From the NCBI GenBank assembly GCA_026706025.1, contig JAPOZO010000072.1, positions 124,001-188,000 on the forward strand: a stretch of DNA of 64,000 nucleotides, given 5' to 3'. Each line of letters begins with the position of its first letter. The first letter of the stretch is position 1. The notes beneath the pieces were generated by a model. That model did not search any database, was not told where the DNA came from, and worked only from the letters and a program-made list of their open reading frames with translations. Source of the stretch: Candidatus Poribacteria bacterium. GTDB taxonomy: Bacteria; Poribacteria; WGA-4E; WGA-3G. Shown one piece after another: positions 24,674 to 52,960 of the stretch. Made by a program: the position numbers and the translations under genes.

Positions 24674-27598
24674 ATGAAAAATAGTGATTTCGCGTTGATC
24701 CGGCGCACCTTAGATGGTGACCAGAACGCATTTACAATACTCGTGAACAAATACCAGAAATGGGTACACACGCTTGTCTGGCGGAAAACAGGTGATTTTC
24801 ACATTGCTGAGGAGATCACGCAGGATGTCTTTCTGAAAGCCTACAAAAAATTATCGACGTTGAAACCGTCGGATCATTTTACAGGATGGCTCTATGTGAT
24901 TGCATCGCGTCGGTGTATAGCATGGTTCCCAAAGAAACAGCTCCCGACGACTTCGCTGGACGCAATGCAAGTATCAGAATTAGAGGAATTCTGCTATACC
25001 CAATATGAGACAAAACTTGGTGAAAAAACCTCTCTCGAACGCCAGCGCGACATCATCAAACGCCTCCTCCAAAAGTTGCCAGAGAGTGAGCGCACTGTCG
25101 TAACGCTCCATTATCTGGCAGAGATGTCTTGTGAAAAAATCAGTGAATTTTTAGGTGTATCACCCAATACCATTAAGAGCCGGCTCCACCGGGCCCGAGC
25201 GCGTTTGAAGAAACAAGAACACCTGCTTCATGATGTCTCCGGTATTTTCCAAGTCCCCCCAACACTAACCGAGAACATCATGCGCGAAATCGCACAGATC
25301 AAACCGTCCACTCCTTCAGTGGCAAAACCTTGGGTGCCGTGGGGATTCTCGTTCGCAGCGACTTTTCTGATCATTCTGATGATCGGACAAGGCACACATC
25401 CGTTATCGCGTTTTCAGCAACCTTATGACTTGGAAGCAACATCGGAGATGACAGTGGAATTGATTGACACATCTATCGTCCGAGAGTTGAAACGCAAATC
25501 CGCCGCGCTGACCCGATTCGGAAGAACCGACACACTCGGTAAAAACAGTGAATCCGGATTCCAAACGGAACCACCCTTCACCACAACCGCGCAAGCAGAT
25601 GGCAATGATCTACCAACAGCAAAACCGCAGTGGATTCAGACACAAGGCCCGGGAGACGTTTCAGAACCAGGGCTTTTTCTCACATCCGATCACACCCTTT
25701 ACGCCATTGCCCAAACGGGCCTCTACCGACTCACTGAAAAAGCAGACGCGTGGACATTTGTCAACTCCAGCGGTCCGAATCAAGCGTTCGACCCAGTGAT
25801 GGCGGAACACGGCGATACTCTCTATCTCCTCACACCAGATGAACTTTTAATCTCAACCGATGGCGGTGAGACGTTGGATACGCTCGGGGCGCGCCCCAAA
25901 GGCCGTGCCGTTGCATTGATTATCACAGACAACATTCAAGGGAACGACTCAGAAAAGACGGATATGACGATGCATCTCGTCCTTAGGACATCCGTATTTC
26001 GTTCTGTGGATGCCGGTAAGGAGTGGATACCCATAGGGGAGGCAATGCGAATTGATAGCACACCGGATGTTGGCAGCCCCAGTTTCCGTATCTGGGACGC
26101 AATTGCTGCTGGCAACAGTCTATTTGTCGGCACAAGCCGAGGACTTTTCCGATTCACCGACGCTTGGAAAAAAGTACCGGTGCCGACATCACAAGGTATT
26201 AATTCGTTGGCAATTGTCGAGAACAGACTCTACGTCGGAACGAATACCGTTCAGCAGGAGGCATCAAGTCAAAACCCTATACCAGCAGTTTTCTATTCAA
26301 CCGATTCTGGCGATTCATGGATAGATATTACGCCCAATATCCACAAATTTCTAACTAAGATAATGACCACACTCCAAGTCGTTACACGTGAAAAAATGTT
26401 GATGGTAATAAGTCCAAGTGGAATGCTACGCTCTTATGACGGTGGTGAAACGTGGAAAGATCCCGGAAATGATCCGCACGCATTTGCGTTCGGGACCTCT
26501 CCTATCGTGGCGTTGGATAAAAATAATTTTTACAAATCTGATACCTCTGGAGTCGTTCGCTCAACGGATGGCGGCATCACGTGGCACTCCTTTACGACTG
26601 GATTGGTGAATTCCCATGTTCCAAATCTCGTTACGGTCAAAAATGTTCTCTACGCGCTAACACCTACAGAAATGCTCAAATCCGTAGATGGCGGTGAGTC
26701 GTGGGAACCCATCGGTTTGGGTACTGACAGAGGTATTCCACTGAAAGGCGCGAAAATCGTAACAGCCGATGGTGCGCTCTATGCAAGCAGCAGTGCCAGT
26801 GATGGTGTTACACTTTCCAGTCTCTCCGATGCTGGTGATGCCTTCCTACCGGTTGAAGATGTCCCAGATTTTGAAGCAGGCACCTTACACACAGAATGGC
26901 CGAAAAAACGTAGAGAACCGTGGACAAACAGTGGCAATGTTATGATAGCGGGGAAACAATGGAGACCAGACCAACGCCACACAACTGAAAAATACAGACC
27001 GCATGGAGCGTTCACACTCACTAACGATACCGTCTTCATGGAATACAAGCGTAAACTCTTCAGATGGCGGCGTGGTGAAACAGCGTGGCACGACACAGGA
27101 TTGGAAAATTCTGATCGCTCCTCCTTTCCCGGTAACCCCGCGAGCGGATTCGTACTCGCCGTTTCTGGCAACACAGTCTATGCCGGTAAACAGGACGGAG
27201 ATCTTTTCCGGTCCACAGACAATGGCGACACCTGGCAGGACATCACTGCGTCTCTCGCCTTTCCGTTTGGATACTTCAAGGACATACGATTCGCGGGCGC
27301 AACCATCTACATCTCAACAGATATGGGGGTCATGCGCTCGCGCGGTGGTAAGACATGGCACGTACTTACCGATGTTGATAGGAAGAGGTTCGTCATGGAC
27401 AGAATTGCAGTCGATGGTATAACGGCTTACGGTGTGTCCAATAGCGGTGTCTATCAGGTGGATCATTATACAAATACATGGAAACCGATTACGCCTGAAT
27501 TGCCTTACATGGCAACCGCCTTTGCCGCTGTCGGTGATACTTTCTACATAGGGACAAAACAGAACGGTGTACTCCGGTTTCAGCGTGCCAATCAATAG
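24674..27598 (+). CDS. ECF sigma factor fused to a transmembrane helix and Asp-box beta-propeller (paralogue 1)
   Basis: This 974-residue protein begins with a complete ECF sigma factor: region 2 near residues 8-90 (EEITQDVFLKAYKKLSTL) and region 4 near 131-180 (LPESERTVVTLHYLAEM, then GVSPNTIKSRLHRARARL). A hydrophobic helix follows at about 219-238 (PWVPWGFSFAATFLIILMIG). The remaining 700 residues hold Asp-box/BNR repeats such as STDSGDSW, SYDGGETW, STDGGITW, SVDGGESW and STDNGDTW. The topology predicts a cytoplasmic sigma domain tethered to a sensor outside the membrane. No anti-sigma gene is adjacent, so the protein may be its own sensor and require release by proteolysis or a conformational change. 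GGGGGG precedes the ATG. Confidence 0.85.
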   Translation: MKNSDFALIRRTLDGDQNAFTILVNKYQKWVHTLVWRKTGDFHIAEEITQDVFLKAYKKLSTLKPSDHFTGWLYVIASRRCIAWFPKKQLPTTSLDAMQVSELEEFCYTQYETKLGEKTSLERQRDIIKRLLQKLPESERTVVTLHYLAEMSCEKISEFLGVSPNTIKSRLHRARARLKKQEHLLHDVSGIFQVPPTLTENIMREIAQIKPSTPSVAKPWVPWGFSFAATFLIILMIGQGTHPLSRFQQPYDLEATSEMTVELIDTSIVRELKRKSAALTRFGRTDTLGKNSESGFQTEPPFTTTAQADGNDLPTAKPQWIQTQGPGDVSEPGLFLTSDHTLYAIAQTGLYRLTEKADAWTFVNSSGPNQAFDPVMAEHGDTLYLLTPDELLISTDGGETLDTLGARPKGRAVALIITDNIQGNDSEKTDMTMHLVLRTSVFRSVDAGKEWIPIGEAMRIDSTPDVGSPSFRIWDAIAAGNSLFVGTSRGLFRFTDAWKKVPVPTSQGINSLAIVENRLYVGTNTVQQEASSQNPIPAVFYSTDSGDSWIDITPNIHKFLTKIMTTLQVVTREKMLMVISPSGMLRSYDGGETWKDPGNDPHAFAFGTSPIVALDKNNFYKSDTSGVVRSTDGGITWHSFTTGLVNSHVPNLVTVKNVLYALTPTEMLKSVDGGESWEPIGLGTDRGIPLKGAKIVTADGALYASSSASDGVTLSSLSDAGDAFLPVEDVPDFEAGTLHTEWPKKRREPWTNSGNVMIAGKQWRPDQRHTTEKYRPHGAFTLTNDTVFMEYKRKLFRWRRGETAWHDTGLENSDRSSFPGNPASGFVLAVSGNTVYAGKQDGDLFRSTDNGDTWQDITASLAFPFGYFKDIRFAGATIYISTDMGVMRSRGGKTWHVLTDVDRKRFVMDRIAVDGITAYGVSNSGVYQVDHYTNTWKPITPELPYMATAFAAVGDTFYIGTKQNGVLRFQRANQ

Positions 27599-28689: not shown

Positions 28690-28803
28690 ATGCAGAATAT
28701 GCAGAGCGATATGTGCAGGATTTGCCAAGTATGCAGGATTTACATAGATGTGTTTTCCGGCATCCCTATCGGTATGGGTTTTTCCAATTGGCACGATAAT
28801 TGC
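28690..28803 (+). promoter_or_regulatory. Predicted sigma-54 promoter with 58-bp upstream element (copy B)
   Basis: The core TTGGCACGATAATTGCT matches the consensus, with GG at 28790-28791 and GC at 28802-28803. The upstream element at 28690-28747 contains several TATGCAG/TGTGCAGG units and aligns with copy A. It faces the operon that begins at 29204. The short frame crossing this region (28657-28956) is probably not a gene. Confidence 0.72.
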
Positions 28804-28815
28804 TCCGATACCTGT

Positions 28816-29203
28816 GTGCGTGTTTTGAATATATGGGGTAAGAAAACTCAAAACGCGATGACGAGGTTCTGTTATCTGTTCATCTCCATCCACCGAGCAC
28901 TATGCTGCGTCCAGTCAACCGACACCAATATGTACTATACGTCGGCACACCTATAAAACATAACGGACATAATGTAGGAATACTGGTAGTTCGCGGGAAG
29001 GTTAGCACGGATAACGGAAGTCCGCCCCCCTTAGCCTCCACGGTTTCACTGCGAAGGAAACTCACTAAGGGCAGCCCTATCTAATGTGTCTACAACTGAT
29101 TATCTCGAGAAAACATCAAAACTAAACTTAATTTTCCGCTTAGGTGAGGTGGTAAACTTCCAGTTTCACCAGAGTGGATACAACAAAAAGGAATAGAACA
29201 ACC
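28816..29203 (+). other. Long leader of the oligosaccharyltransferase operon
   Basis: If transcription starts near 28815, about 390 bases precede the first gene. The leader opens with an inverted pair (GCGTGTTTTGA near 28820, TCAAAACGCG near 28850) and has G/C-rich blocks near 29010-29080. I recognise no known riboswitch or coding gene. Confidence 0.35.
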
Positions 29204-29461
29204 ATGAAAAAATTTTGGATGAACAGCCTCCCACTTCTGGCAGTACTCTTTGTTCTCACTATCGGTTTCACCATGTTCAACAACTTGGATGCGTCTCCAT
29301 CTGATACGAACGATCCTTGTGCGGATTTGCGGGAAATCTGTCGTCAAGAAGCGGATTATGCTACTGCCACATGCGAAAAATATGGCAGCGACTCCAATTG
29401 GTGTAAAGATGCAAGAAAAGACGCAACCAAAGCTTGTAACGCCGCTATGACTGGCTGTTAG
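29204..29461 (+). CDS. Small secreted six-cysteine protein
   Basis: The 85-residue product has a signal peptide (SLPLLAVLFVLTIGFTMF) and a mature part of about 50 residues with six cysteines (C-x6-C-x10-C-x9-C-x9-C-x6-C), suggesting three disulphides. AAAAGGA precedes ATG 29204. It is the first gene after predicted sigma-54 promoter B and precedes two membrane-anchored proteins and an STT3-like enzyme. I do not recognise the family. The mature sequence has no N-x-S/T sequon. Confidence 0.65.
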   Translation: MKKFWMNSLPLLAVLFVLTIGFTMFNNLDASPSDTNDPCADLREICRQEADYATATCEKYGSDSNWCKDARKDATKACNAAMTGC

Positions 29462-29484
29462 TCTTTTTGTATTTAACCTACATT

Positions 29485-29513
29485 CAGTGTTGCTCTGGAC
29501 AGGAGCAACACTG
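29485..29513 (+). terminator. Perfect 11-bp hairpin between operon genes
   Basis: CAGTGTTGCTC (29485-29495) pairs fully with GAGCAACACTG (29503-29513) around a seven-base loop. No U-tract follows, so it is more likely an RNA-stability or attenuation element setting expression between the small cysteine-rich gene and the next gene than a full terminator. Confidence 0.55.
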
Positions 29514-29533
29514 GATATATAGGAGTTTAGACA

Positions 29534-30601
29534 ATGAAAATAAGACCTTTTTATAGTATTAGCATTCTCGCCATCGTTCTCGGACTCTGTGCGATCGGAT
29601 GGCTGGTGTTTCAACCGAAACAGATGGAGCCAGTTGTCACATACAGATCCGTCACACCTGAATCACGCACTGCGGATACCCCACAGTCTGCGGAGGAGAG
29701 ATATGAAGCAAACCTAAAAGAGAGGGCAGGGCGTGATATAGAATACATGCTTGAGAGCAGGACTGATGATCCCGATATGCAGCAAGCACTGAAAAAAGCC
29801 ATGCAATCGCCTGAATATCTGGCATATAAGCGAAAACAGGATGCAATCTTTCCTGGGTTTAACCTTGTGCTTTGGTGGGACTTCCTTGAATCGCAAGGTA
29901 TTAAATCTTCCGCTCGGGAACTACAGGAAAAAAACTTCCGCGAATATTTTCCTACCGGCGATTATGCCGATTATGAACCGATCATGCGAAAAAAACTCGC
30001 CGAACTCTTCTTGGAGTTGGACCTCCTCGTAGATGGCACAGATAAGCAAACCGTACGCGAGTATACGCTTGCTGTTCTAAATGAGTTTAGAAGTGATTGG
30101 AGTCATAAGATTTGGATGCGTGGATACTTCAATGGATATGACGGTGATGTCGCTTGGGCGGACAATATCCGGCAGAACGCTGCCAACATCCTCACGGAAT
30201 TAACGCCAGCAGATATTAAGACATCACCATTACTGACCGAATCTGTCTCCACGCAAAACACAACACACATCGTGGAAGCAGTTAGTGATACCGTAACATT
30301 CCCTAACATAGATGCTGAAGCGTTACCGGTACTTAAGGACTCAGCGCAGGGGCCACAAACTATCCAGCGAACTGAGTCGGTACTCATAAAACAACACCTC
30401 CCGGATACCGCCGGATTCCCAATCGAGACTCAGTTTCAAGATACACTACGTGATCACTTTTCACTCGAACGTTTAAACCGTGCGCTGGAGACATTAAACC
30501 GATATGGCTCCAAAGATGGACTTCATCGGCTTAAAGAATCTGATCCCGAAGTCGCTGCACGCCTTGAACGCTTCATTCAACCCGACAAGGAGCGTGATTA
30601 A
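29534..30601 (+). CDS. Membrane-anchored protein of unknown function
   Basis: The 355-residue protein has an N-terminal anchor (FYSISILAIVLGLCAIGWLVF) and a mostly helical, charged exported domain, ending in a helix-rich segment (LERLNRALETLNRYG). One N-x-T sequon (STQNTTHI) is present near the middle of a Thr/Ser-rich linker. I recognise no family. It is followed two bases later by the 101-residue gene, so the two are probably co-translated within the STT3 operon. Confidence 0.65.
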   Translation: MKIRPFYSISILAIVLGLCAIGWLVFQPKQMEPVVTYRSVTPESRTADTPQSAEERYEANLKERAGRDIEYMLESRTDDPDMQQALKKAMQSPEYLAYKRKQDAIFPGFNLVLWWDFLESQGIKSSARELQEKNFREYFPTGDYADYEPIMRKKLAELFLELDLLVDGTDKQTVREYTLAVLNEFRSDWSHKIWMRGYFNGYDGDVAWADNIRQNAANILTELTPADIKTSPLLTESVSTQNTTHIVEAVSDTVTFPNIDAEALPVLKDSAQGPQTIQRTESVLIKQHLPDTAGFPIETQFQDTLRDHFSLERLNRALETLNRYGSKDGLHRLKESDPEVAARLERFIQPDKERD

Positions 30602-30603
30602 TC

Positions 30604-30909
30604 ATGAAAGATACGCATATCTTCTACGGGGTCTGCCTTATCGCTGCCCTTGCAATCGCTGCGGTCGGCATCGGATACGCTACCGATATACTCCCACTGC
30701 ATAAGCAGAACACCATCACCACAGTAACATCCGACACAACAAATACCCTGCAACCGGACATAGCACCGACGCGGGCATCCGAAAGTATAGCGGCATCGAA
30801 AGAGAAGAACTGTGGATGCTGCGCGGAACGCAGGGCGAAGTATCAAGAGATGATCAAAAAACGTCGTGAACGCCGTAAGGCTGCAGCACAGCAAATGGCA
30901 CCTGAATAA
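30604..30909 (+). CDS. Small membrane-anchored protein with CGCC motif
   Basis: The 101-residue protein has a signal anchor (IFYGVCLIAALAIAAVGIGYA), a Thr/Ser-rich stretch, the cysteine cluster NCGCCAERR and a very basic C-terminal helix (MIKKRRERRKAAAQQ). The family is unknown. AAGGAG lies at the end of the previous gene. The cluster could bind a metal or form a disulphide; this is inferred. Confidence 0.6.
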   Translation: MKDTHIFYGVCLIAALAIAAVGIGYATDILPLHKQNTITTVTSDTTNTLQPDIAPTRASESIAASKEKNCGCCAERRAKYQEMIKKRRERRKAAAQQMAPE

Positions 30910-30941
30910 CGAAAACGCTAAACTTTTCACAAGAGAACCCT

Positions 30942-32939
30942 ATGGAGATACGAACACTCGGCACTGTTGCCCTCCTTATCATCGTTCTGTTTGGTTCTTT
31001 TTTAATCCGTATTCAAAGTTCAACGAATATCCCCGCTGGACAGCTAACGGACCCTGACGGCTATTTTTATCATTGGCAGGCACAACTCATCTCAGAAAAC
31101 GGGCAGCTTCCGGCACGTGATATGCGGCGCTGGTTACCCCTCGGTAGAGACTTAGGACAGACCCTAAATCTCTATCCATACATCCTCGCCTATACCCACA
31201 AAGCACTCTCGCGAGTGTTTCCTAATATCTCGCTTTATCAGGTCGTCTTCTATATGCCCGTTCTCTGTTTTTGTATTGGACTCGGCGCGCTCTATCTTTT
31301 TCTCGCGCACACTTTTGACCTACGCGCTGCCGGTATCGTCGGGATATTTTTAGTAACCCTCCCTGCCTGTATTGAACGCAGCTGCGCCGGTGTTGGAGAT
31401 AGAGACAGTTGGTGCCTTATGCTCGGTCTACTTGCTGTTATAACCTATCTCACATCCTTGAGGGTAGAACGTCCCGCTTCACGCATGCGATGGACACTCG
31501 CAAATGGCTTCATCCTATTTCTCGGGGGTATCAGCTGGGAAGGCTTCGGCGTTTTCCTGAGTATTATCCTCTGTGTTGAGATATGGCGATTTATCACATC
31601 AGAAACAGAGACAGATCTACGGTATTATCTAATATGGGTCTGTACCTTCGTCCCGACGCTTTATCTCGCGTCTCCTGCTTATCGCAGCGGAGACGGTTTC
31701 GCAAAACATCTCTTCGCATTTATGCTGATGCCGCCACTCGCACTTTTAGGCATTCGTGTGCTCCGATACATCCTGATAACAAAGACACCTTGGGCAGAGA
31801 AACTCAAACCGCACAGTCGAAGCGTCGCACTCGGTCTAACGCTCGCCAGCATTGTACTCGCGCTCGGATATGTGTTGATACAACGCGGCACTTTTGGCAG
31901 CACCACCGTCCCGATGAGCCAAAATGAATTGATGCAAACGGTAGCAGAACTTAAGAACCCTTTTCTTGAATATTGGATGTTCCGCTACGGCAGCATTTTT
32001 GTTTTGGGGTACTGCGGTATCGTCATGGCAGTCATCCGTTTTTGGAAAACACGCGGTGTGCTATTGGCTGTACCACTAACATTGTTCACAATCACCACCT
32101 TTTATCGCAGCCGACTTGACAGTTTATGGGGCGCAGCTACAGGTAATCTGCTTTTTAGTGCCGCAGTTGTTGCCTGCATCATCGGATTTGTTGTGCTGGC
32201 ATGGCGACGGCAGCGTACACCTGAAAACGAATTTGCTTATATTGCTTTCGTGCTGTGGTTTCTTTTCTGGTCCGCACTCACCCGTGACGCGAAACGTTAC
32301 GACTTTTTTATTGGGATGTCTGTCGCTTTTTTCGCCTCAGACCTCATCGGTTTCCTCGCTGATTTCTACGGCAATCAGCTCAAAAAACGCGTCCCACAAC
32401 GCCTCCTAAAGACCACCATTACCACTGTTATGCTTGGCATCATACTTTTCTGGACGCCTGCTGGTGGACACGCAACTCGCACGCTGCTCGCTGCGACCTA
32501 TTTCCGACAGGCGATCCCCGGAAATAGCCCAGAAGCACAAACCTTTGATTGGATAAAAAGTAATCTTCCAGACACCGCTGTCGTCGCTGCAAATTGGAGT
32601 TTCGGTAGTCTACTCAATGTCTTGTCCAATGTCAAAACCATCGTTGACCAAGATCATTACATACAATACTGGATACACCTCTATAACCAGCATGTCTACT
32701 TTGCTGAATCCGAACGCGAGGTTTTAGAGTTCTTGAAAACACATAACGTCACGCATATTATGCTAACGACAGAAAGAGAACCATCTAATACATTTCTGCA
32801 CGGGCAGTTAAGCAACGCGTTTGTTCCGGTCTATCCGATAGAAAATTTCGCATCGGCAGAGGTTAAGGTATGGAAGATTCACTACACCTCTGACATCCAG
32901 TCGCATCCGAAATATGTTGCCACAACGCCGGAAAAATGA
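30942..32939 (+). CDS. STT3/AglB-like oligosaccharyltransferase
   Basis: The 665-residue polytopic protein has the hallmarks of the STT3/AglB/PglB family. The first external loop has an acidic motif near residues 37-45 (TDPDGYFYHWQAQ), and a second acidic motif lies near 151-156 (GVGDRDSW). About a dozen membrane helices follow, then a C-terminal soluble domain with NWSFGSLLN, positioned like the WWDYG motif but altered. These enzymes transfer a lipid-linked glycan to Asn in N-x-S/T sequons outside the membrane. No glycan assembly genes are adjacent. Because WWDYG is changed, an alternative is a related GT-C glycosyltransferase with a different acceptor. It is the last gene of the sigma-54-type operon. 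Confidence 0.72.
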   Translation: MEIRTLGTVALLIIVLFGSFLIRIQSSTNIPAGQLTDPDGYFYHWQAQLISENGQLPARDMRRWLPLGRDLGQTLNLYPYILAYTHKALSRVFPNISLYQVVFYMPVLCFCIGLGALYLFLAHTFDLRAAGIVGIFLVTLPACIERSCAGVGDRDSWCLMLGLLAVITYLTSLRVERPASRMRWTLANGFILFLGGISWEGFGVFLSIILCVEIWRFITSETETDLRYYLIWVCTFVPTLYLASPAYRSGDGFAKHLFAFMLMPPLALLGIRVLRYILITKTPWAEKLKPHSRSVALGLTLASIVLALGYVLIQRGTFGSTTVPMSQNELMQTVAELKNPFLEYWMFRYGSIFVLGYCGIVMAVIRFWKTRGVLLAVPLTLFTITTFYRSRLDSLWGAATGNLLFSAAVVACIIGFVVLAWRRQRTPENEFAYIAFVLWFLFWSALTRDAKRYDFFIGMSVAFFASDLIGFLADFYGNQLKKRVPQRLLKTTITTVMLGIILFWTPAGGHATRTLLAATYFRQAIPGNSPEAQTFDWIKSNLPDTAVVAANWSFGSLLNVLSNVKTIVDQDHYIQYWIHLYNQHVYFAESEREVLEFLKTHNVTHIMLTTEREPSNTFLHGQLSNAFVPVYPIENFASAEVKVWKIHYTSDIQSHPKYVATTPEK

Positions 32940-33243: not shown

Positions 33244-34548
33244 ATGATTCACAGAACAAGAAATGGCAAACCCCGTAATAAAGCGAACGTTTTTATTCTG
33301 GGTGATGTGTCTAATGACACCGTGAGAAATTTGGAACACCTCCTTGAAAAAGACGGTTACGATCCTGCTATTGTGGCAAAGGACAGAGCTGCACAACTCG
33401 CTAATGTTGAGTCCGAGGCAGTCCTATTGGTTTCTGAGAACGGAAATGGTCACCCGATACCACAGCGGATAGAAGATACACGCGAGATTAAAAAAGCAGG
33501 AACTGTGCAATTTAAAACGTCTCGGAAGCTTTCAAGGAGTGAATTACAAGGAAATTACGCCGGTATTATTGGGAGAAGTCCACGAGTTATTGAAATTCTC
33601 AGACAAATTGATAAGGTTGCAAACACAGCAGCAAAAGTGCTTATTTGTGGTGAGACAGGGACAGGCAAAGAGTTGATAGCACAAGCCTTACACCAAAATA
33701 GTGACCGTTCAACGAACGAAATGATTTCTCTCAATTGTGCAGCCATTCCAGGGCCACTTCTGGAAAGTGAACTTTTTGGACATGAAAGAGGGTCGTTTAC
33801 TGGTGCGAGAACACAACACATCGGCAAATTTGAAAGAGCACACAACAACACGCTATTCCTTGATGAAATCGGCGATATGCCGCTATCTCTGCAAGTCAAA
33901 CTATTACGGGCAGTTGAGACGGGCAAGATTGAACGTCTCGGTGGCACAAAGCCAATTCCAGTGGACATCCGAATTGTAGCGGCTACACATTGTAACCTCG
34001 CACACGCAGTTGAAAATGGCACCTTTCGCAAGGACCTCTATTACCGATTAAATGCTGTTTCTATTTCTATACCCCCATTACGTGAACGGCAGGAAGATAT
34101 CCAGGTCTTGGCAGAACACTTTATCGAGAAACATGGTAGAAGCTACGCGCGCGCCGTGCGTAAAATACTCCCCGAAACACTTACATGTCTCCAAAACTAT
34201 CCATGGCCCGGCAATGTGCGAGAGTTGGAAAACGTCCTAATCCACGCGCTCCTTTTTGCTGAAGGCAATGGCATCTTACCGACGGACCTTCCCGAAGAAA
34301 TTCTTGCATTCCAAAAGCCGCGTGTCAGCGTGCCAGAAGAAATTCACGTGCCCGAAAACCAATACGCAGTGACTGTTCCGCTTGGGGCGAGCCTTAAAGC
34401 CGTGGAAGAAGCCTTTATTCGCGATACTTTAGCATGGCAGGGCGGCAATCGAACGAAAACCGCGGAGATATTGGGTATAAGCATTCGGACCTTGCAAAAT
34501 AGATTGAAAGACTATGAAATATCAGAAAATGGCACCTCTCCGGCATAG
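33244..34548 (+). CDS. Sigma-54-dependent transcriptional activator with degenerate receiver domain
   Basis: The roughly 434-residue protein has three parts. The N-terminal 90 residues have a receiver-like shape (NVFILGDVSNDTVRNLEHLL), but the usual phospho-acceptor Asp is not recognisable (VLLVSENGNG). The AAA+ domain has Walker A GETGTGKE, the sigma-54 contact loop GSFTGA (a GAFTGA variant) and Walker B TLFLDEIGDM. The C-terminal helix-turn-helix is Fis-type (NRTKTAEILGISIRTLQNRL). It should bind upstream sites and open sigma-54 promoters such as those at 21247, 24555, 27985 and 28789. Starts at GTG 33235, GTG 33241 and ATG 33244 are possible; GGAG lies at 33228-33231. Confidence 0.88.
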   Translation: MIHRTRNGKPRNKANVFILGDVSNDTVRNLEHLLEKDGYDPAIVAKDRAAQLANVESEAVLLVSENGNGHPIPQRIEDTREIKKAGTVQFKTSRKLSRSELQGNYAGIIGRSPRVIEILRQIDKVANTAAKVLICGETGTGKELIAQALHQNSDRSTNEMISLNCAAIPGPLLESELFGHERGSFTGARTQHIGKFERAHNNTLFLDEIGDMPLSLQVKLLRAVETGKIERLGGTKPIPVDIRIVAATHCNLAHAVENGTFRKDLYYRLNAVSISIPPLRERQEDIQVLAEHFIEKHGRSYARAVRKILPETLTCLQNYPWPGNVRELENVLIHALLFAEGNGILPTDLPEEILAFQKPRVSVPEEIHVPENQYAVTVPLGASLKAVEEAFIRDTLAWQGGNRTKTAEILGISIRTLQNRLKDYEISENGTSPA

Positions 34549-34684: not shown

Positions 34685-34722
34685 TAATATCATGAAACCC
34701 CTATTTTTTTACAGGAGACATG

Positions 34723-37617
34723 ATGAATACCAGCGACGCTGACCTCATTCAACGTATATTAGACGGCGATCAAGATGCCTTCACCACGATCGTCAATAAA
34801 TATCAAAAGTCGGTGCATGCCCTTGTTTGGCGGAAGATCGGTGATTTCCACATCGCCGAAGAAATCACGCAAGATGTCTTTCTGAAGGTTTACAAGCGAC
34901 TCTCGACGCTGAAACGTCGGGATCATTTTCCGGGATGGCTCTATGTAATTGCCACGCGTCGTTGTATCGCATGGCTACGAAAAAAGCAACTCCCGACGAA
35001 ATCTTTGGATGCCATGTCCACAGGGCAGTTAGAGGAGTTATGTTATACACAATATGAGGTGAACCGCTGCGAAGAAACAGCGATTGAACACCGGAGCGAA
35101 CTCGTCAAACGCCTTCTGCAAAAACTTCCAGAGAGTGAACGTACCGTTGTAACGTTATATTATCTCGCAGAAATGACAGGTGAAGAGATTAGCATGTTCT
35201 TAGGCGTGTCGCCGAACACTGTGAGGAGTCGGCTTCTGCGCGCCCGGCAACGACTAAAAAAGGAGGAATCTATGATTCAGGAGGTCCTGAGCAATTTCCA
35301 ACTCGCCCCAAATCTAACAGAGAACATCATACGTGAAATCGTCCGTCTCAAACCGACATCCCCTTCCGCGAGCAAACCTTGGATACCGTGGGGACTCTCT
35401 TTCTCTGCGACCTTTTTGGTTATCCTGATGATGGGATTCGGCACGCGCGTATTATCCCGTTTTCAGCAACCTTACAGTTTAAATGCGACATCCGAGATGA
35501 CTGTGGAACTGATTGACGCGCCTGTTGTCCTTGAATTAGAACGTAAACCTGACGCACTCATCCGATTCGGAAGAGCCGATATACCCGGTAAAGACGGTAG
35601 GTCTGAATTCCAAGCGGAACCCTTGCTCATCGCAGCGGCGCAAGCAGACGAGACCGACCTGCCAACAGCAAAACCACAATGGGTTCAGACAAAGGGACCG
35701 GGATGTGTTTCACGGGCTGGACTCTTTCTCGCATCTGACCAGACTCTCTACGCTGTTGCGAAAACGGGGCTTTATCGACTCACAGAAGAATCGGACGCGT
35801 GGACGCTTGTCAGTGCCAGTGGTCCAAATCGAGAGTTCAATGCGGCTTTCAATACAGTTATGGCAGAATACGGGGACACCCTTTATCTCCTCACCTCCAA
35901 TGAACTTTTAGCCTCAACTAATGCGGGTAAGACATGGAACAGCCTCGGCGCGCGCCCCGAAGGACGTGTGGTTACGTTGATTATCACAGATACGGCGATG
36001 TACCTCGTCCTCAGCAGAGAAGTATTTCGTTCTGAAGATGTCGGGCGCCAATGGGAGTCGATTGGACAAACCTTGAAAATTGATAACATGCCGGATCCCA
36101 ATTCCCTTATATGGGATGCCCTCGCCATTGATAACACCCTATTTGTCGGAACAAGTCAAGGGCTTTTTCAGTTTACCGACGCATGGAAAAAATTGTCGGT
36201 GCCAACTTCGCACGGCATCAAATCGTTGGCAGTCGCAGGAGATAGAATCTATGTCGGAACAACTAATGTCGGTCAACAGCCCAGAGCAGGTAGGAGCCTA
36301 TATGCCGCCGTTTTCTATTCGACGGACCTCGGTGATTCTTGGACAGATATTACACCGGATACCGACAAGCATTTACATAAAATAATAGCCGCTGTTGAGG
36401 TTGTTCCAGTCGGAGGGACCCTGATGTTAGTTGGTGTCGGCGGTGTACTCGTCTCTTATGACCGTGGCGAGACATGGATGGATCCGAGGCGCGACCGCGG
36501 GGTATTAGGCGCGTTTCCTGTTGTTGCAGTGGACGAAAGTAATTTTTATATAACCAATCCATCCGGAATAACACGCTCAACAAATGGCGGTGCCACATGG
36601 CACCCCTTTATGGCTGGAATGGTGAATTCCAATGTGCCAAATCTGATTACGGTCAAAAACGTTCTCTACGCGCTAACACCTACAGAAATGTTCAAATCCG
36701 CAGATGGTGGTGAGTCGTGGAAATCTGTCGGCTTGAATGCTAACGGGAATGTTCCACTGAAAAGACCAGGAGCGAAAGTTGCAACAGCCGGCGGCGTGCT
36801 CTATGCAAGCAACAGTGAACTTCGTGAGGGTGTCACACTTTTTCGCCTCTCTGATGCAGGTGATGTGTTCCAACCCGTTGAAGGTGTACCGGATTTTGAA
36901 GAAGACACCTTACACACAGAACAAATGAAAAAATTCATGGAAGCCGAAAAGAACAATGTTGACCTTGATAAAGTGCAGGAGCAGTGGAAAGTTGACCGGC
37001 ACCGCGTCATGGAAGAGTGGCGGACAAATGGAATGTTTACCGTCACCGATGATACTGTCTTCATGGAGTACAGACGTAAACTTTTCAGATGGCGACGCGG
37101 TGAAACGGCATGGCACGACACAGGTTTGGAAGATATTGAAGGGGTGTCTCCTATTTACGGAAAAGGGTTTACCCTTGCTGTTTCAGGGAAAACAGTCTAT
37201 GCAGGAAAACGGGAAGGAGATCTTTTTCTCTCCCAAGATGGTGGAGACACTTGGAGTGATGTCACCGAAAATCTTGTATTTCCGTTTGGACACTTCAAGG
37301 AGATACTGTTCGCTGGATCAACCGCCTATGTCTCAACCGATATGGGAGTTATGAATTCACGCGACGGCGAGACATGGTACGTACTCACCGATACTGATGG
37401 GAATAGACGCATCATGGACCGGATCGCAGTTGATCACACAACGGCTTACGGTGTGTGTGATAGCGGTGTCTATCAGATAGATAACCAGACGAACACATGG
37501 AAACAGATTGCTACAGAACTACCACACACAGCGATCTCCCTTGCAGTTGATGGCAATACGTTTTACATCGGCACAAAGCAAAACGGTGTCCTCCGCTTTC
37601 AGCGTGACAGTCGGTAA
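34723..37617 (+). CDS. ECF sigma factor fused to a transmembrane helix and Asp-box beta-propeller (paralogue 2)
   Basis: The product has about 964 residues and the same plan as the protein at 24674. Sigma region 2 includes EEITQDVFLKVYKRLSTL, region 4 includes LPESERTVVTLYYLAEMTGE and GVSPNTVRSRLLRARQRL, and the helix is PWIPWGLSFSATFLVILMMG. The large propeller has Asp boxes (STNAGKTW, STDLGDSW, SYDRGETW, STNGGATW, SADGGESW, SQDGGDTW). The ATG at 34723 sits five bases after AGGAG; the ATG three bases earlier is too close. The propeller is closer to that of paralogue 4 than to that of paralogue 3. Confidence 0.85.
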   Translation: MNTSDADLIQRILDGDQDAFTTIVNKYQKSVHALVWRKIGDFHIAEEITQDVFLKVYKRLSTLKRRDHFPGWLYVIATRRCIAWLRKKQLPTKSLDAMSTGQLEELCYTQYEVNRCEETAIEHRSELVKRLLQKLPESERTVVTLYYLAEMTGEEISMFLGVSPNTVRSRLLRARQRLKKEESMIQEVLSNFQLAPNLTENIIREIVRLKPTSPSASKPWIPWGLSFSATFLVILMMGFGTRVLSRFQQPYSLNATSEMTVELIDAPVVLELERKPDALIRFGRADIPGKDGRSEFQAEPLLIAAAQADETDLPTAKPQWVQTKGPGCVSRAGLFLASDQTLYAVAKTGLYRLTEESDAWTLVSASGPNREFNAAFNTVMAEYGDTLYLLTSNELLASTNAGKTWNSLGARPEGRVVTLIITDTAMYLVLSREVFRSEDVGRQWESIGQTLKIDNMPDPNSLIWDALAIDNTLFVGTSQGLFQFTDAWKKLSVPTSHGIKSLAVAGDRIYVGTTNVGQQPRAGRSLYAAVFYSTDLGDSWTDITPDTDKHLHKIIAAVEVVPVGGTLMLVGVGGVLVSYDRGETWMDPRRDRGVLGAFPVVAVDESNFYITNPSGITRSTNGGATWHPFMAGMVNSNVPNLITVKNVLYALTPTEMFKSADGGESWKSVGLNANGNVPLKRPGAKVATAGGVLYASNSELREGVTLFRLSDAGDVFQPVEGVPDFEEDTLHTEQMKKFMEAEKNNVDLDKVQEQWKVDRHRVMEEWRTNGMFTVTDDTVFMEYRRKLFRWRRGETAWHDTGLEDIEGVSPIYGKGFTLAVSGKTVYAGKREGDLFLSQDGGDTWSDVTENLVFPFGHFKEILFAGSTAYVSTDMGVMNSRDGETWYVLTDTDGNRRIMDRIAVDHTTAYGVCDSGVYQIDNQTNTWKQIATELPHTAISLAVDGNTFYIGTKQNGVLRFQRDSR

Positions 37618-37795: not shown

Positions 37796-40747
37796 ATGAA
37801 GGCAAATGATGTTGATCTCATTCAACGGACTTTAGACGGTGATCAAGGTGCATTTACCACGCTCGTTAACAAATACCAGAAATCGGTGCATGCCCTCGTC
37901 TGGCGAAAGATAAGTGATTTCCATATCGCTGAGGAAATCACACAAGATGTCTTTCTGAAAGTTTACAAGAGACTCTCCACGCTGAAACGTCCAGAACTTT
38001 TTCCGGGATGGCTCTATGTGATTGCCACACGGGACTGCGTTTCATGGCTGCGGAAAAAGCAGCTACCGACGAAATCTTTGGATGCCATGTCCACAGCCGA
38101 ACTCGAAGAAGTCTGCTACGCGCAATATGAAGCGAACTGTGGTGAAGAAACAGCAATTGAACACCAGCGCGAACTCGTCAAACGTCTCCTCCAAAAGCTG
38201 CCGGAGAGCGAACGCACCGTTGTAACCCTGTATTATCTCGCAGAAATGAAGAGTGAAGACATTAGCGCATTTTTGGGAGTATCGTCAAACACAATTAGAA
38301 GTCGGCTCCGCCGTGCCCGCGAACGGTTGGAAAAGGAAGAACTCATGATTCAAGAGGTTCTCGGCAGTTTCCAAATACCCACCAATCTAACCGAGAACAT
38401 CATGCGCGAAATTGTTAAGATCAAACCGATATCGCCTTCCGTAAGCAAGCCATGGCTACCGTGGGGACTCTCTTTCGCGTCAACGTTCTTGGTTCTCTTG
38501 ATGGTCGGAATGGGCCCTCGTGCATTATCCCGTTTTCAGCAACCCTATAACTTGGACGCGACATCGGAGATGACGGTTGAGTTGGTTGACGCACCCGTTG
38601 TATTTGAACTAAAACGAGAACTGGATGTAAGAAATCGGTTTGGAAAGAGTGATGCGCCGGGGAGAGGCAGCGGTGCAGGTCCGAAAGCCAATGCCGGACT
38701 GTTGGCAGCAGCACAAGTAGATACCGTAGAGAGACAGGAGACAGAACCGCAATGGATGCCAACAAGAGGGCCAGAGGGTGGCGGTATCAAGAACCTATTT
38801 GTCACATCGCAAAAAGAGGTCTATGCTGTTGGAGACACCCGACTCTACCGATTAGCAGATGACAACACTGGATGGACACTCATTAACGCCGCACTGCCCT
38901 TTATATCTCATAGTACGCCGATGGCAGAGGGGAAGGATACCCTCTATATTGCCACGGAAACTAATTTACTCGCGTCAACAGATCGGGGTGTGACGTTGCA
39001 TTTCCTCGGTCCACGGCCACGCGGACGCGCCATCGCCCTGCTTATCCCCAGCAGACTACGCTGGTCGAAGGATGCACAGATTGAAATGTACCTCGTCCTC
39101 GCAGACGGCGTGTTTCGTTCAACAGATGCTGGCGGCACATGGCACGCGTTTAACAATGGTTTGGTAGCACCGAAGATACACGCTGCAGTTGCCATTGAAA
39201 ATGCCCTCTTTTTGGGAACAAAACACGGACTCTACCGACTCAACTCAGGCGTATGGGAGAAATTATCCGTTGCACAAGCACAATCTATTGACGCATTGGC
39301 AGTCGCTGGCGACAAAATTTACATCAGTGTCCCAAAGCAGAGAGATCAGAAATCCGGTTCCCTCTTTGCCTCAAGTGATTTCGGAGCGTCCTGGGTTGAC
39401 ATAACCCCCATAAATCTAAAATTAGGAATGGTACCACTGACAAGAAGGTCACCACTGACAATTGGATCAGGATCTGTAAAACTTGTGGCGGCAGGTGAAA
39501 CCCTCTTAGGACTTGGACTGGGTGCTGGCGTTTTACGTTCAAGAGATGCTGGCGACACATGGGAATACCTCGGTATTCATAAACACGCGCTCACACTCGG
39601 CATTTTCCCCGCGGTCGCTTTAGATGCGAATACTTTTTTTATTGGAGGGAATAGACCTGGACGTTCAACAGATGGTGGCAATAGTTGGCATCTGTTCGCA
39701 GCATGTATAGCAGAACCTCACATTCTTGATCTCGCACTGGTTAACAACGTGCTCTACGCTGTAACCAATAAAGGTATCGCTAAATCCATTGACGGCGGGA
39801 ATCAATGGACACAACTCGACACAAATCTACGACTCCCGAGAAATAAACCGCTTGGCGCGCTAAAGTTGTCAAATATGACAGTCGTGGCGGATTCACTTTA
39901 TGTCAGAACGAATCAGGGTGGAAGTACAAACTGTTTGCTCCATTTACCTCCGGATGCCGATACACTGATGCATATTGAAGGAATGCCGGTTTACGTAGAT
40001 CCAAGCCACGGCAAATGGTTGGAACAGACAATCAGGACAACTGGCACTATTGACCTGAATGATACAGATCTCGCTCGCTATCAACTCGGCATTGAGGAAG
40101 CCGTTGTGAGAACGACGGGTGAGTTCGCTATCAGCGAAAACACGTTCTACATTGAATACGAACGGAAACTCTACCGATGGACCCGTGGAAATCCAGAATG
40201 GCACGACACCGGTATGCACGACGTACCCGTATTCAGGGACTTCTATGCGACTGACGGTTTCCAATTCGCTGTCTCAGGAAAGGTCATCTATCTCGGAAAA
40301 AGTGACGGCGGTCTTTTCCAATCCTTGGATGGTGGGGACACTTGGAAAGATATTACCCCAGATTTCCCCTTCCGCCTTAATAAAGCGGAATCGCAGTACC
40401 AACTCGTAAAGAAAATACCGCACTTCAGAGAGATATTCTTTGTGGGTAACACGGTATACGTTTCAACAAAAGACGGCACTGCTATGTCGAACGATGGCGA
40501 AAACTGGCACACACTCACCGATCCAAAATATACACCGATTGCCATACGCCAATTAGCAGTCGATGACACAACCCTGTACGGTGTTTCCCAAACAGGTGTT
40601 TATCAATTGAATAATAGGACAGGCATCTGGGAGTCAATTACTTCAGAAGTCCTTGGACAGGTAACTTCCATTGTTGTTGCGAGGAATGTTCTCTATATGG
40701 GCACAGAACACCGCGGGCTTTTAAGCTTGCCGCTGTATGGACTCTAA
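37796..40747 (+). CDS. ECF sigma factor fused to a transmembrane helix and Asp-box beta-propeller (paralogue 3)
   Basis: The 983-residue protein has region 2 (EEITQDVFLKVYKRLSTL), region 4 (LPESERTVVTLYYLAEMKSEDISAF), a membrane helix (PWLPWGLSFASTFLVLLMVG) and an Asp-box propeller (STDAGGTW, SSDFGASW, SRDAGDTW, STDGGNSW, SIDGGNQW, SLDGGDTW, SNDGENW). The sensor part is the most divergent of the four, whereas the region-4 DNA shares a 79-base identical run with paralogue 4. GAGGAG precedes the ATG by five bases. Sensor divergence with a conserved sigma part suggests different inputs feeding one promoter class. Confidence 0.85.
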   Translation: MKANDVDLIQRTLDGDQGAFTTLVNKYQKSVHALVWRKISDFHIAEEITQDVFLKVYKRLSTLKRPELFPGWLYVIATRDCVSWLRKKQLPTKSLDAMSTAELEEVCYAQYEANCGEETAIEHQRELVKRLLQKLPESERTVVTLYYLAEMKSEDISAFLGVSSNTIRSRLRRARERLEKEELMIQEVLGSFQIPTNLTENIMREIVKIKPISPSVSKPWLPWGLSFASTFLVLLMVGMGPRALSRFQQPYNLDATSEMTVELVDAPVVFELKRELDVRNRFGKSDAPGRGSGAGPKANAGLLAAAQVDTVERQETEPQWMPTRGPEGGGIKNLFVTSQKEVYAVGDTRLYRLADDNTGWTLINAALPFISHSTPMAEGKDTLYIATETNLLASTDRGVTLHFLGPRPRGRAIALLIPSRLRWSKDAQIEMYLVLADGVFRSTDAGGTWHAFNNGLVAPKIHAAVAIENALFLGTKHGLYRLNSGVWEKLSVAQAQSIDALAVAGDKIYISVPKQRDQKSGSLFASSDFGASWVDITPINLKLGMVPLTRRSPLTIGSGSVKLVAAGETLLGLGLGAGVLRSRDAGDTWEYLGIHKHALTLGIFPAVALDANTFFIGGNRPGRSTDGGNSWHLFAACIAEPHILDLALVNNVLYAVTNKGIAKSIDGGNQWTQLDTNLRLPRNKPLGALKLSNMTVVADSLYVRTNQGGSTNCLLHLPPDADTLMHIEGMPVYVDPSHGKWLEQTIRTTGTIDLNDTDLARYQLGIEEAVVRTTGEFAISENTFYIEYERKLYRWTRGNPEWHDTGMHDVPVFRDFYATDGFQFAVSGKVIYLGKSDGGLFQSLDGGDTWKDITPDFPFRLNKAESQYQLVKKIPHFREIFFVGNTVYVSTKDGTAMSNDGENWHTLTDPKYTPIAIRQLAVDDTTLYGVSQTGVYQLNNRTGIWESITSEVLGQVTSIVVARNVLYMGTEHRGLLSLPLYGL

Positions 40748-41051: not shown

Positions 41052-43922
41052 ATGAGAGAGAGTGATGCTGCATTAATTCAACGGACTTTGGATGGAGACG
41101 AGGGAGCGTTTACAACGCTCGTCAACAAATACCAGAAATGGGTTCATACCCTTGTCTGGCGGAAGATAGGTGATTTCCATACCGCCGAAGAACTCACACA
41201 AGATATCTTCCTTAAGGTGTACAAAAAGTTATCGACACTGAAACCGCTCGATCGTTTTCCGGGGTGGCTCTATGTCATCACCACGCGGCACTGTATCACA
41301 TGGCTCCGAAAGAAGCAGGTATCAACGACATCCCTGAATGCGATATCCACAACCGAATTAGAGGCATTATGTTATGCCCGATATGAGGCAGCACGTGGCG
41401 AGGAAGCATCTATTGAACACCAGCGCGAACTCGTCAAACGCCTCCTCCAAAAGCTTCCAGAGAGCGAACGCACCGTTGTAACCCTGTATTATCTCGCAGA
41501 AATGAAGAGTGAAGACATTAGCGCATTTTTGGGAGTATCACCGAACACGGTTCGGAGTCGGCTCCGCCGCGCTCGCAAGCGATTGAAAGCGCAAGAACAC
41601 TTGCTCCACAATGTTTCAGGTGTATTCCAATTGCCGCCGACTTTAACCCAGGATGTCATGCGTGAAATCGCGCGCATCAAACCCACTTCGCCTTCCGTGA
41701 GTAAGCCATGGCTACCGTGGGGACTCTCATTCGCGTCAACGTTCTTGGTTATCCTGATGATGGGATTCGGTACACGGGCACTATCCCGTTTTCAACAACC
41801 CTACAACTTAGATGCAACATCGGAGATGACAATAGAACTCGTTGACGCACCTATTGTCTTTGAACTGGAACGTAAACCCGACGCGCTGACCCAATTCGGG
41901 AAGACTGATACACCGGGTAAAAACGGGGCATCTGGATTCCAAGCGGAATCCCTTCTCGTCGCAGCTGCACATGCCGAAGAGCCCGACCTTCCAGCAGCAA
42001 AACCTAAATGGATTCAGACAAAGGGACCGGGCGGCGTTTCAAGGGCTGGACTCTTTCTAACATCCGATCAGACCCTCTATGCTGTTGCCAAAACAGGACT
42101 TTATCGACTCACAGAAGGAGGAGATGCGTGGACGCTTATCAGCCCCAGTGGCCCAAATCGCGAGTTTGATCCGATTATGGCAGAACGCGATGGCAACCTC
42201 TACCTCCCTACTGTCAATGAACTCTTAGTCTCAATTGATAGTGGTAAAACATGGAATAGCCTCGGCGCGCGTCCCGAGGGTCGTGTAAGGGCATTAATTA
42301 TCACAGATACAGCGATGTACCTCGTCCTCCGCACAGAGGTGTTTCGTTCTGAGGATGTCGGTAACCACTGGGAACCGATAGGAGCAGCCTTGCAAACTGA
42401 TAAGGGTCCAGAGGACATCGATCCTAATTTCCGTATATGGGACGCGCTCGCTATTGATAACACCCTATTTGTCGGAACAAGTCAAGGACTGTTCCGGTTT
42501 ACCAATGATTGGAAAAAATTGCCAGTGCCAACTTCGCACGGCATCAAATCGTTGGCAGTCGCTGAAGATAGACTCTACGTCGGAACAATCGCAAGTCCAC
42601 CGCATGGTCCGCATGCCGCCGTTTTCTATTCAACCGACCTCGGCGATTTCTGGATTGATATTACGCCGAATACCCACGAACATCCAGTGAAAATAATAAC
42701 CACTGTCGAAGTGGTTCCAGTCGGTGATTTGCTTGTGTTAAAAGGTTCCAGTGGTGTCTTAATCTCTGATGACGGTGGCGAGACATGGGTGGATCCTAAA
42801 CCCGGACCCCATACGTTTGGCGCGTTTCCTATTGTCGCATTGGACGAAAACACGTTTTATGGCGCTGATTTTGATGGAATAAAACGCTCCACCGATGGCG
42901 GTGTCACCTGGCACCCGTTCATGACCGGAATGGTGAATTCACATGTGCCAAATCTGGTTGCACTCGAAAACGTTCTCTACGCACTAACATCTACAGAAAT
43001 GCTCAAATCCGCAGATGGCGGTGAGACATGGGAATCCGTCGGCTTAAATACGAACGAAAAAACTTCCCTCGAAGGCACGCAAGCGAAAGTCGCAACAGCC
43101 AACGGCGTTCTCTATACAAGCAACAGTGAATTCAAGGGTGTTACGCTCTATCACCTCTCTGATGCCGGTGATGTCTTCCTACCCGTTGAAGCTGTCCCGG
43201 ATTTTGAAGAAGACACCTTACACACGGAACGCTTCAAAAAAGTCATGGAAGCGGGTAAGAACAATGCCGATGTTGGTAAAGTGCAGGAACTGTTGACAGC
43301 CAACCAAGAGCGCGTCATTGAAGAGTGGAGAACAAATGGAACGTTTACAGTCGCTGACGATACCGTCTTCATGGAATACAGACATAAACTCTACAGATGG
43401 CGACGCGGCGAAACCACGTGGCACGACACAGGTTTAGAAGACATCAAAGGCATCTCACCGATTGAGGGAAAAGGGTTCACCCTTGCTGTTTCGGGAAACA
43501 CCATCTATGCCGGGAAACGAGAAGGAAATCTCTTCCTGTCCCAAGACAGCGGAGACACTTGGCGCGATGTTACCGAAAACCTTGTGTTTCCGTTTGGATA
43601 TTTCAAAGAAATACGCTTCGCAGGGTCAACTGTCTATGTCTCAACAGATATGGGAGTCATGCGTTCAAACGATGGCGAGGCATGGCACGTACTTACCGAT
43701 GCTGATGGTAACAGACTTATCATGGACAGGATTGCAGTCGTTGGCGCGTCGGCTTACGGTGTGTGTGATAGTGGTGTCTATCAGGTAGATAACCCAAAAA
43801 ACGCATGGAAACAGATTACTCCAGAACTACCCCACACAGCGACTGCTCTTGCTATTGATGGTGATATGATCTACATCGGCACAAAGCAAAACGGCGTACT
43901 CCGCTTGCAACGCGACGATTAA
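41052..43922 (+). CDS. ECF sigma factor fused to a transmembrane helix and Asp-box beta-propeller (paralogue 4)
   Basis: The 956-residue protein has region 2 (AEELTQDIFLKVYKKLSTL), region 4 (LPESERTVVTLYYLAEMKSE and GVSPNTVRSRLRRARKRL), a membrane helix (PWLPWGLSFASTFLVILMMG) and a propeller with Asp boxes (SIDSGKTW, STDLGDFW, SDDGGETW, STDGGVTW, SADGGETW, SQDSGDTW, SNDGEAW). GGAGG precedes the ATG. It closes the array of three consecutive sigma-propeller genes. Confidence 0.85.
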   Translation: MRESDAALIQRTLDGDEGAFTTLVNKYQKWVHTLVWRKIGDFHTAEELTQDIFLKVYKKLSTLKPLDRFPGWLYVITTRHCITWLRKKQVSTTSLNAISTTELEALCYARYEAARGEEASIEHQRELVKRLLQKLPESERTVVTLYYLAEMKSEDISAFLGVSPNTVRSRLRRARKRLKAQEHLLHNVSGVFQLPPTLTQDVMREIARIKPTSPSVSKPWLPWGLSFASTFLVILMMGFGTRALSRFQQPYNLDATSEMTIELVDAPIVFELERKPDALTQFGKTDTPGKNGASGFQAESLLVAAAHAEEPDLPAAKPKWIQTKGPGGVSRAGLFLTSDQTLYAVAKTGLYRLTEGGDAWTLISPSGPNREFDPIMAERDGNLYLPTVNELLVSIDSGKTWNSLGARPEGRVRALIITDTAMYLVLRTEVFRSEDVGNHWEPIGAALQTDKGPEDIDPNFRIWDALAIDNTLFVGTSQGLFRFTNDWKKLPVPTSHGIKSLAVAEDRLYVGTIASPPHGPHAAVFYSTDLGDFWIDITPNTHEHPVKIITTVEVVPVGDLLVLKGSSGVLISDDGGETWVDPKPGPHTFGAFPIVALDENTFYGADFDGIKRSTDGGVTWHPFMTGMVNSHVPNLVALENVLYALTSTEMLKSADGGETWESVGLNTNEKTSLEGTQAKVATANGVLYTSNSEFKGVTLYHLSDAGDVFLPVEAVPDFEEDTLHTERFKKVMEAGKNNADVGKVQELLTANQERVIEEWRTNGTFTVADDTVFMEYRHKLYRWRRGETTWHDTGLEDIKGISPIEGKGFTLAVSGNTIYAGKREGNLFLSQDSGDTWRDVTENLVFPFGYFKEIRFAGSTVYVSTDMGVMRSNDGEAWHVLTDADGNRLIMDRIAVVGASAYGVCDSGVYQVDNPKNAWKQITPELPHTATALAIDGDMIYIGTKQNGVLRLQRDD

Positions 43923-52798: not shown

Positions 52799-52960
52799 AT
52801 GGAAATTATGACAGTTTTTTGTGCGAAACTCTACGGACGACGTTCTCATAAGTCTAAGAAAATGGCAGAAGAAATAGAGAATATCGTCAACGAAGAAAAA
52901 CAGCAAATGGAGCTACAAGGTGGCACTCCGAACTCAGAAGATAGAACTGAATCCGAATAA
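52799..52960 (+). CDS. Small 53-residue ORF overlapping tnpB
   Basis: The frame begins MEIMTVFCAKLYG, is rich in K and E, and ends QGGTPNSEDRTESE. It overlaps the first 41 bases of tnpB in another frame. An internal ATG at 52808 is also possible and would fit the predicted transcript start better. Its stop lying beyond the tnpB start could couple translation. Function unknown; it may just be leader sequence. Confidence 0.4.
   Translation: MEIMTVFCAKLYGRRSHKSKKMAEEIENIVNEEKQQMELQGGTPNSEDRTESE

Follow-up and report, generated by a model that had tools for sequence, protein, structure and literature searches.

An operon that links a small, exported, cysteine-rich peptide to an STT3-like integral membrane enzyme lies in a 64 kb stretch of DNA (the window; G000:C72:124001-188000, G000 being the window's own genome, of 6.27 Mb) from a sponge-symbiont Candidatus Poribacteria, a group known from sponges. 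All features described here are on the forward strand and are numbered from the first base of the window. The first gene (29204..29461) encodes an 85-residue peptide with a signal or transmembrane segment at residues 9-24, a signal-peptidase-like L-D-A at 28-30 and six cysteines, all after the signal, one of them C-terminal. It is followed by p2 (29534..30601), by p3, which contains the sequence CGCC (30604..30909), and by the enzyme gene (30942..32939; 665 residues), beyond which stands the gene for a sigma-54 activator. The four-gene arrangement described in the initial annotation is therefore present in full. An antisense open reading frame hides the peptide gene from a simple longest-frame caller; the caller used for the statistics below scored frames by codon use.

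The order peptide-p2-p3-STT3-activator is kept in orthologous loci. In several of these, p3 and the STT3-like gene are separated by a further exported gene, p4 (about 270 residues), which the window lacks. Against orthologues, the ratio of nonsynonymous to synonymous substitution (dN/dS) is 0.14-0.31 for the peptide, 0.18-0.35 for p2, 0.12-0.28 for p3 (except for 0.68 in one very close pair) and 0.09-0.16 for the STT3-like gene. Because these ratios are low, all four are judged from their sequences to be real genes under purifying selection. The retained gene order, the low dN/dS and the recurrence of peptides at related loci agree with the expectation that the small genes are conserved with the enzyme.

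Predicted sigma-54 control of the operon

About 400 nucleotides before the peptide gene lies a -24/-12 element, TGGCACGATAATTGCT (28789..28804), a full match to TGGCAY-N5-TTGCT and the sole match in the window, where 0.04 would be expected. The same or a near-identical element precedes the peptides of orthologues and of unrelated cassettes. In 65 peptide-upstream regions (38.7 kb), sites with zero or one mismatch number 16, where a rate taken from 800 kb of control strand sequence predicts 0.39. Some of these regions are mutually orthologous, so that the 16 sites are not all independent; they are spread over no fewer than five distinct types of cassette. One of the 16 belongs to L139 (L-numbers label the STT3-like loci, or cassettes), which comes from a different family of the class. 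The linked activator gene (33244..34548) encodes an AAA+ protein with a Fis helix-turn-helix (PF00158, 235 bits). Orthologous loci retain it on the downstream side of STT3, and other cassettes have an activator of the same type ahead of the peptide. With the element, the activator and rpoN all found in this genome, the window cassette is predicted to be a sigma-54 regulated operon, and the promoter proposed earlier holds up. The 400-nucleotide leader between promoter and peptide (28805-29203) is possibly an insertion; L039 has a similar one (-417), and those of other orthologues measure 97-260 nucleotides.

The STT3-like enzyme and its WWDYG position

Sequence profile and modelled structure place the enzyme in the STT3 superfamily, in line with its first description as STT3/AglB-like. 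It scores 55.3 bits against PF02516 in a Pfam scan (cut-off 24.5) and 65.4 bits against the NCBIfam model TIGR04154, far below the model cut-off of 450. A profile of 32 relatives retrieves yeast STT3 in the PDB, with a 'WsyG' region aligned to WWDYG. The AlphaFold2 model (predicted local distance difference test, pLDDT, 78; predicted template modelling score, pTM, 0.82) has human and yeast STT3, A. fulgidus AglB and C. lari PglB as its top Foldseek matches (1.4e-10 to 8e-6), and so recovers both PglB and AglB, the structures that had been named for comparison. After the oligosaccharyltransferases come DPY19 (1.9e-7) and then ArnT (3e-4); a Pfam scan of the enzyme with E up to 1 returns no Dpy19 family. 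Since profile and fold point to STT3/AglB and the small genes are conserved, neither a match to another family of the glycosyltransferase C (GT-C) fold nor a lack of conservation around the enzyme speaks against the assignment.

The motifs expected of the catalytic site are in place. They comprise D39, the catalytic Asp of the first external loop (first DXD; 31056..31058), which by motif corresponds to AglB Asp47 (PMC8342417), D153-R-D155, the second DXD (31398..31406), and T-V-A-E at 333-336 (31938..31949), at the position of the TIXE/SVSE motif. In AglB the TIXE motif reads T-I-A-E, and the DXD and TIXE motifs are described as serving to bind metal and to contact the sequon (PMC8342417). D39, D153, D155 and E336 are kept in a 32-row alignment and are near-invariant in larger ones. 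These features suggest that the enzyme probably works like an oligosaccharyltransferase.

The WWDYG motif has been described as strictly conserved, and in C. lari PglB its W463-W464-D465 hydrogen-bond the +2 Thr of the sequon (PMC3527161). At this position, as placed by the profile alignment to yeast STT3, the enzyme has N-W-S-F-G (residues 551-555; 32592..32606). In an alignment of 95 enzymes, W552 is present in 93 and G555 in all 95, whereas 13 different letters occur at 551 and 10 at 553, such that most of the expanded family carries xW[x][YFHS]G instead of WWDYG. The canonical motif is confined to L136, L137 and L142, which represent other families of the class, and to L081, a distant paralogue in the window's genome. 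Parsimony on the tree of these enzymes, whose long branches leave the deep part unsure, counts 3 changes at 551 (W versus other) and 35 letter changes at 553. As read from the alignments, the pocket that would recognize Ser or Thr is thus degenerate while the catalytic residues are conserved. Because WWDYG, one of the defining features, is missing, the enzyme is not classed as a canonical N-glycosylating oligosaccharyltransferase.

Cassettes, peptides and accessory proteins

PF02516 has seven matches in the window's genome, so STT3-like genes are not rare there. The enzyme is found in 41 of 60 relatives by single-sequence search and in 59 of 85 genomes of the phylum by profile search, with matches per genome, fragments included, ranging from 0 to more than 20; several genomes of the same genus have none. 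The searches thus describe a large, patchily distributed family that is expanded in Poribacteria. The arrangement varies, the forms seen including the window type (peptide-p2-p3-STT3-activator), one that reads activator-peptide-WD40-MacB/FtsX permease-STT3-CDP-alcohol phosphotransferase, and one that reads peptide-p2-like-STT3-glycosyltransferase family 2 (GT2). The cassette arrangement is also found in single-contig genomes. One family copy (G000:C20:48849-50695) is split over two reading frames, and may be a decaying gene or an assembly error.

The upstream neighbours of about 100 STT3-like loci were read, and a gene was counted as a peptide gene if its product had a hydrophobic N-terminus with at least 4 Cys after it, if it passed on coding score, and if it lay no more than 4.5 kb upstream of STT3. 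By this rule, a Cys-rich exported peptide precedes 29 of 51 non-redundant STT3 loci and 3 of 69 control genes, which were sampled in randomly chosen regions of two genomes in the same genus (Fisher p = 6e-11). The candidates number 73, or 52 at 60% identity, and fall into 18 similarity groups. Shortly beyond the hydrophobic stretch, 32 of 49 peptides have an [x][EDQ]A site (6.8 expected), and 31 of 49 have a Cys among the last four residues (14.2 expected); beyond the signal region, this site and the Cys tail, the peptides have no common sequence. Runs of Ser are also enriched in the 52 non-redundant peptides (34 versus 6.6), partly due to a few peptides with long runs. The peptides scanned, that of the window included, match no Pfam or NCBIfam family above cut-off. 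We take the NVEALA-type and DUF6520 peptides of Bacteroidetes to be alike in being small and exported, with a hydrophobic N-terminus, an E-A type motif and a Cys-rich tail, but the window peptide has no NVEALA match, and its match to DUF6520 (14.2 bits) is under the cut-off of 25.4.

Several cassettes depart from the one-peptide plan. L078 (G000:C26) encodes four secreted peptides that are related to one another and have CxCGCG-type tails, and in L081 (G000:C34) the peptide is present as three copies in tandem, of which two are identical. In the peptides of L066, L132 and L092, the hydrophobic segment is followed by ISDAEMAQHVGG or LSDSEMAVLHATG, which look like double-glycine leader motifs. 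L115 and L117 each encode another exported Cys-rich protein, a large one (540 and 486 residues, respectively) with at least 20 Cys and Asn/Gly-rich repeats; the one such protein scanned has no Pfam match.

The product of p2 (355 residues) has a single, N-terminal transmembrane segment, a helical domain at 53-222, a disordered linker at 225-297 and a C-terminal helical module. It has no Pfam match and no NCBIfam match above cut-off, and its AlphaFold2 model, helical and of low confidence (pLDDT 65), matches nothing in the PDB. The p3 protein (101 residues) likewise has one N-terminal transmembrane segment, together with the CGCC (C70, C72 and C73; bases 30811-30822) and a Lys/Arg-rich tail, and matches no Pfam or NCBIfam family above cut-off. 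Homologues of p2 and p3 occur in about 15 cassettes. The C-terminal module of p2 (residues 313-350, ERLNRALETLNRYGSKDGLHRLKESDPEVAARLERFIQ; 30470..30583) is shared more widely: about 38 residues long and of the pattern Y-G-x-x-[ED]-G-L-x-R-L-x-x-x-D-P-E-x-A, it ends p2, p4 and some p3-type proteins, namely the CxCC proteins of L099 and L103. It is present in about 28 STT3 loci, some of them mutual duplicates, and absent from 400 kb of control sequence read in six frames. We infer that the module may be a docking element. The repeated pairing of unrelated peptides with divergent enzyme copies, along with this shared module, suggests that enzyme and peptides act together.

Acceptor choice and possible function

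We lean, with modest confidence, towards a view in which the enzyme of each cassette is a private oligosaccharyltransferase, dedicated to glycosylating the secreted Cys-rich peptide encoded beside it, which follows some rule other than N-X-S/T and is helped by p2 and p3. The sigma-54 RNA polymerase and the linked activator would transcribe the peptide, p2, p3 and enzyme genes together, and the signal sequence would take the peptide across the inner membrane, with cleavage close to a [T/S/A/L]-[E/D]-A site. The enzyme would then act on the periplasmic face, moving a glycan from a polyprenyl-linked donor onto the peptide, with p2, p3 and the shared C-terminal module as membrane-anchored docking or presentation factors. 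Genes that could serve the supply of a lipid-linked donor are at hand: PF02397 initiating transferases are present in the window's genome, and downstream of the enzyme a DPM1-type GT2 motif lies in 9 of 58 non-redundant loci (controls, 0.002 per 1.8 kb) and one for CDP-alcohol phosphotransferase in 16 of 58 (controls, 0.011 per 1.8 kb), both counted by regular expression with Pfam backing for one example each. As the Ser/Thr pocket is degenerate and varies between paralogues, acceptor choice is proposed to depend on private pairing of enzyme, accessory proteins and peptide, not on N-X-S/T. The product could be a secreted accessory trait, for example one for interaction with the host or neighbours. 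More tentatively, and at somewhat less than even odds, an STT3-type lineage may have left N-X-S/T altogether, with loss of WWDYG followed by the rise of many private pairs that glycosylate hypervariable peptides, perhaps not on Asn.

Some results weigh against a private transferase. C. jejuni PglB loses its activity when WWDYG is substituted (PMC3527161), so the enzyme here may be inactive; purifying selection on the STT3-like gene makes a dead enzyme the less favoured view. By the strict rule, 22 of the 51 non-redundant loci have no peptide, many of these holding a low-Cys small exported protein. The sequon did not emerge as an acceptor code: the 52 non-redundant peptides hold 51 N-X-S/T, marginally more than the 41.3 +/- 5.8 of shuffles (58 of 1000 shuffles as high), and the enrichment is not significant overall or in either group defined by the state of WWD. 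Nor did a gapped residue-pair scan of the peptides give a clear acceptor motif after multiple testing, its leads being weak and not significant (e.g., N-C, 35 versus 21).

Could the enzyme instead be a general N-glycosylation enzyme that acts at N-X-S/T of many exported proteins, with the small genes as accessory subunits or passengers? It has the catalytic motifs and the fold of N-glycosylating oligosaccharyltransferases, and 31 of the 52 peptides have at least one sequon. However, the whole expanded clade has a degenerate WWDYG, the motif whose substitution inactivates C. jejuni PglB, and a family count that runs from none to more than 20 within one genus is odd for a general pathway. The window peptide has no sequon, and the single NTT in p2, pointed out earlier, is present in the window and is unconserved among orthologues, so it is rejected as a conserved acceptor. 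With WWDYG degenerate, sequons not significantly enriched in the peptides and the p2 sequon unconserved, the original suggestion of canonical N-glycosylation is doubtful, and a general enzyme of this kind appears quite improbable. The Cys-rich peptide, one of the small proteins proposed as acceptors or accessories, is still the best guess for a dedicated acceptor.

Among the alternatives the likeliest, though itself unlikely, is that the enzyme is of the GT-C type that, like DPY19 and ArnT, draws on a polyprenyl-phosphate monosaccharide, and that it adds single sugars to Trp, Cys, Ser or lipid instead of oligosaccharides to Asn. DPY19 and ArnT follow the oligosaccharyltransferases as fold matches, an acceptor need not be Asn where the WWD pocket is lacking, and the Ser runs and C-terminal Cys of the peptides would fit. 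The DPM1-type GT2 genes next to 9 of the 58 non-redundant copies would fit as well. Yet oligosaccharyltransferase structures rank first, PF02516 is matched and Dpy19 is not, every catalytic motif of the oligosaccharyltransferases including TIXE is intact, and the peptides show no enrichment of W-x-x-[WC] (8 versus 6.5). The CDP-alcohol phosphotransferase genes, or MacB/FtsX-type permease genes, in many cassettes would also suit an enzyme that makes a surface glycan or glycolipid, with the peptides as independent effectors (bacteriocin-like or metal-binding) that share the operon; so would the lack of a common peptide sequence. The recurrent pairing of unrelated peptides with one enzyme family and the shared accessory module argue against this reading, which we hold to be the least probable of all.

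The nearest known systems resemble the cassettes in part. The cassette enzyme has in common with STT3, AglB and PglB (PF02516, GT66) the fold, two DXD motifs, TIXE and a C-terminal globular domain, but differs in its degenerate WWDYG, in its multiple paralogues each with a peptide, in its sigma-54 operon and in that the sequon is not implicated. The DPY19 C-mannosyltransferases have a related GT-C fold, and a polyprenyl-phosphate sugar supplied by neighbouring GT2 genes is plausible for the cassettes; the intact oligosaccharyltransferase motifs, the weaker fold match and the lack of enrichment of a Trp acceptor motif set the cassette enzyme apart. By analogy, the glycocins (sublancin, glycocin F) offer a dedicated transferase that modifies a co-encoded secreted Cys peptide, as is proposed here. 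Glycocin enzymes are soluble GT2-type proteins that act before export, whereas the cassettes have an integral membrane STT3-type enzyme (PF02516) and a putative acceptor exported by a signal peptide, with GT2 genes adjoining only some of them.

Known STT3 oligosaccharyltransferases read N-X-S/T through a motif called strictly conserved, while here the catalytic site is intact and that motif is scrambled. If the proposal is true, the family, with its many paired copies, would amount to a collection of enzymes in which nature has changed the acceptor rules; the coding of acceptor choice would become testable in it, and it might yield tools for glycoengineering. The peptides would be an unstudied secreted class in an abundant, uncultured animal symbiont. 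In the literature covered in full text, which leaves out most subscription papers and all bioRxiv preprints, no paper was found to join Poribacteria with oligosaccharyltransferase, and no account of the system came up.

The operon is flanked on both sides by four genes for large proteins (24674-27598, 34720-37617, 37796-40747 and 41052-43922), and such genes recur beside orthologous loci. As scanned, those at 24674-27598 and 37796-40747 encode an extracytoplasmic function (ECF) sigma-70 factor fused to a BNR/sortilin-like propeller; the one at 34720-37617 reads like these fusions, and that at 41052-43922 is only of similar size. Farther downstream, the window holds an IS605 OrfB/TnpB-type transposase gene (52920-54011).

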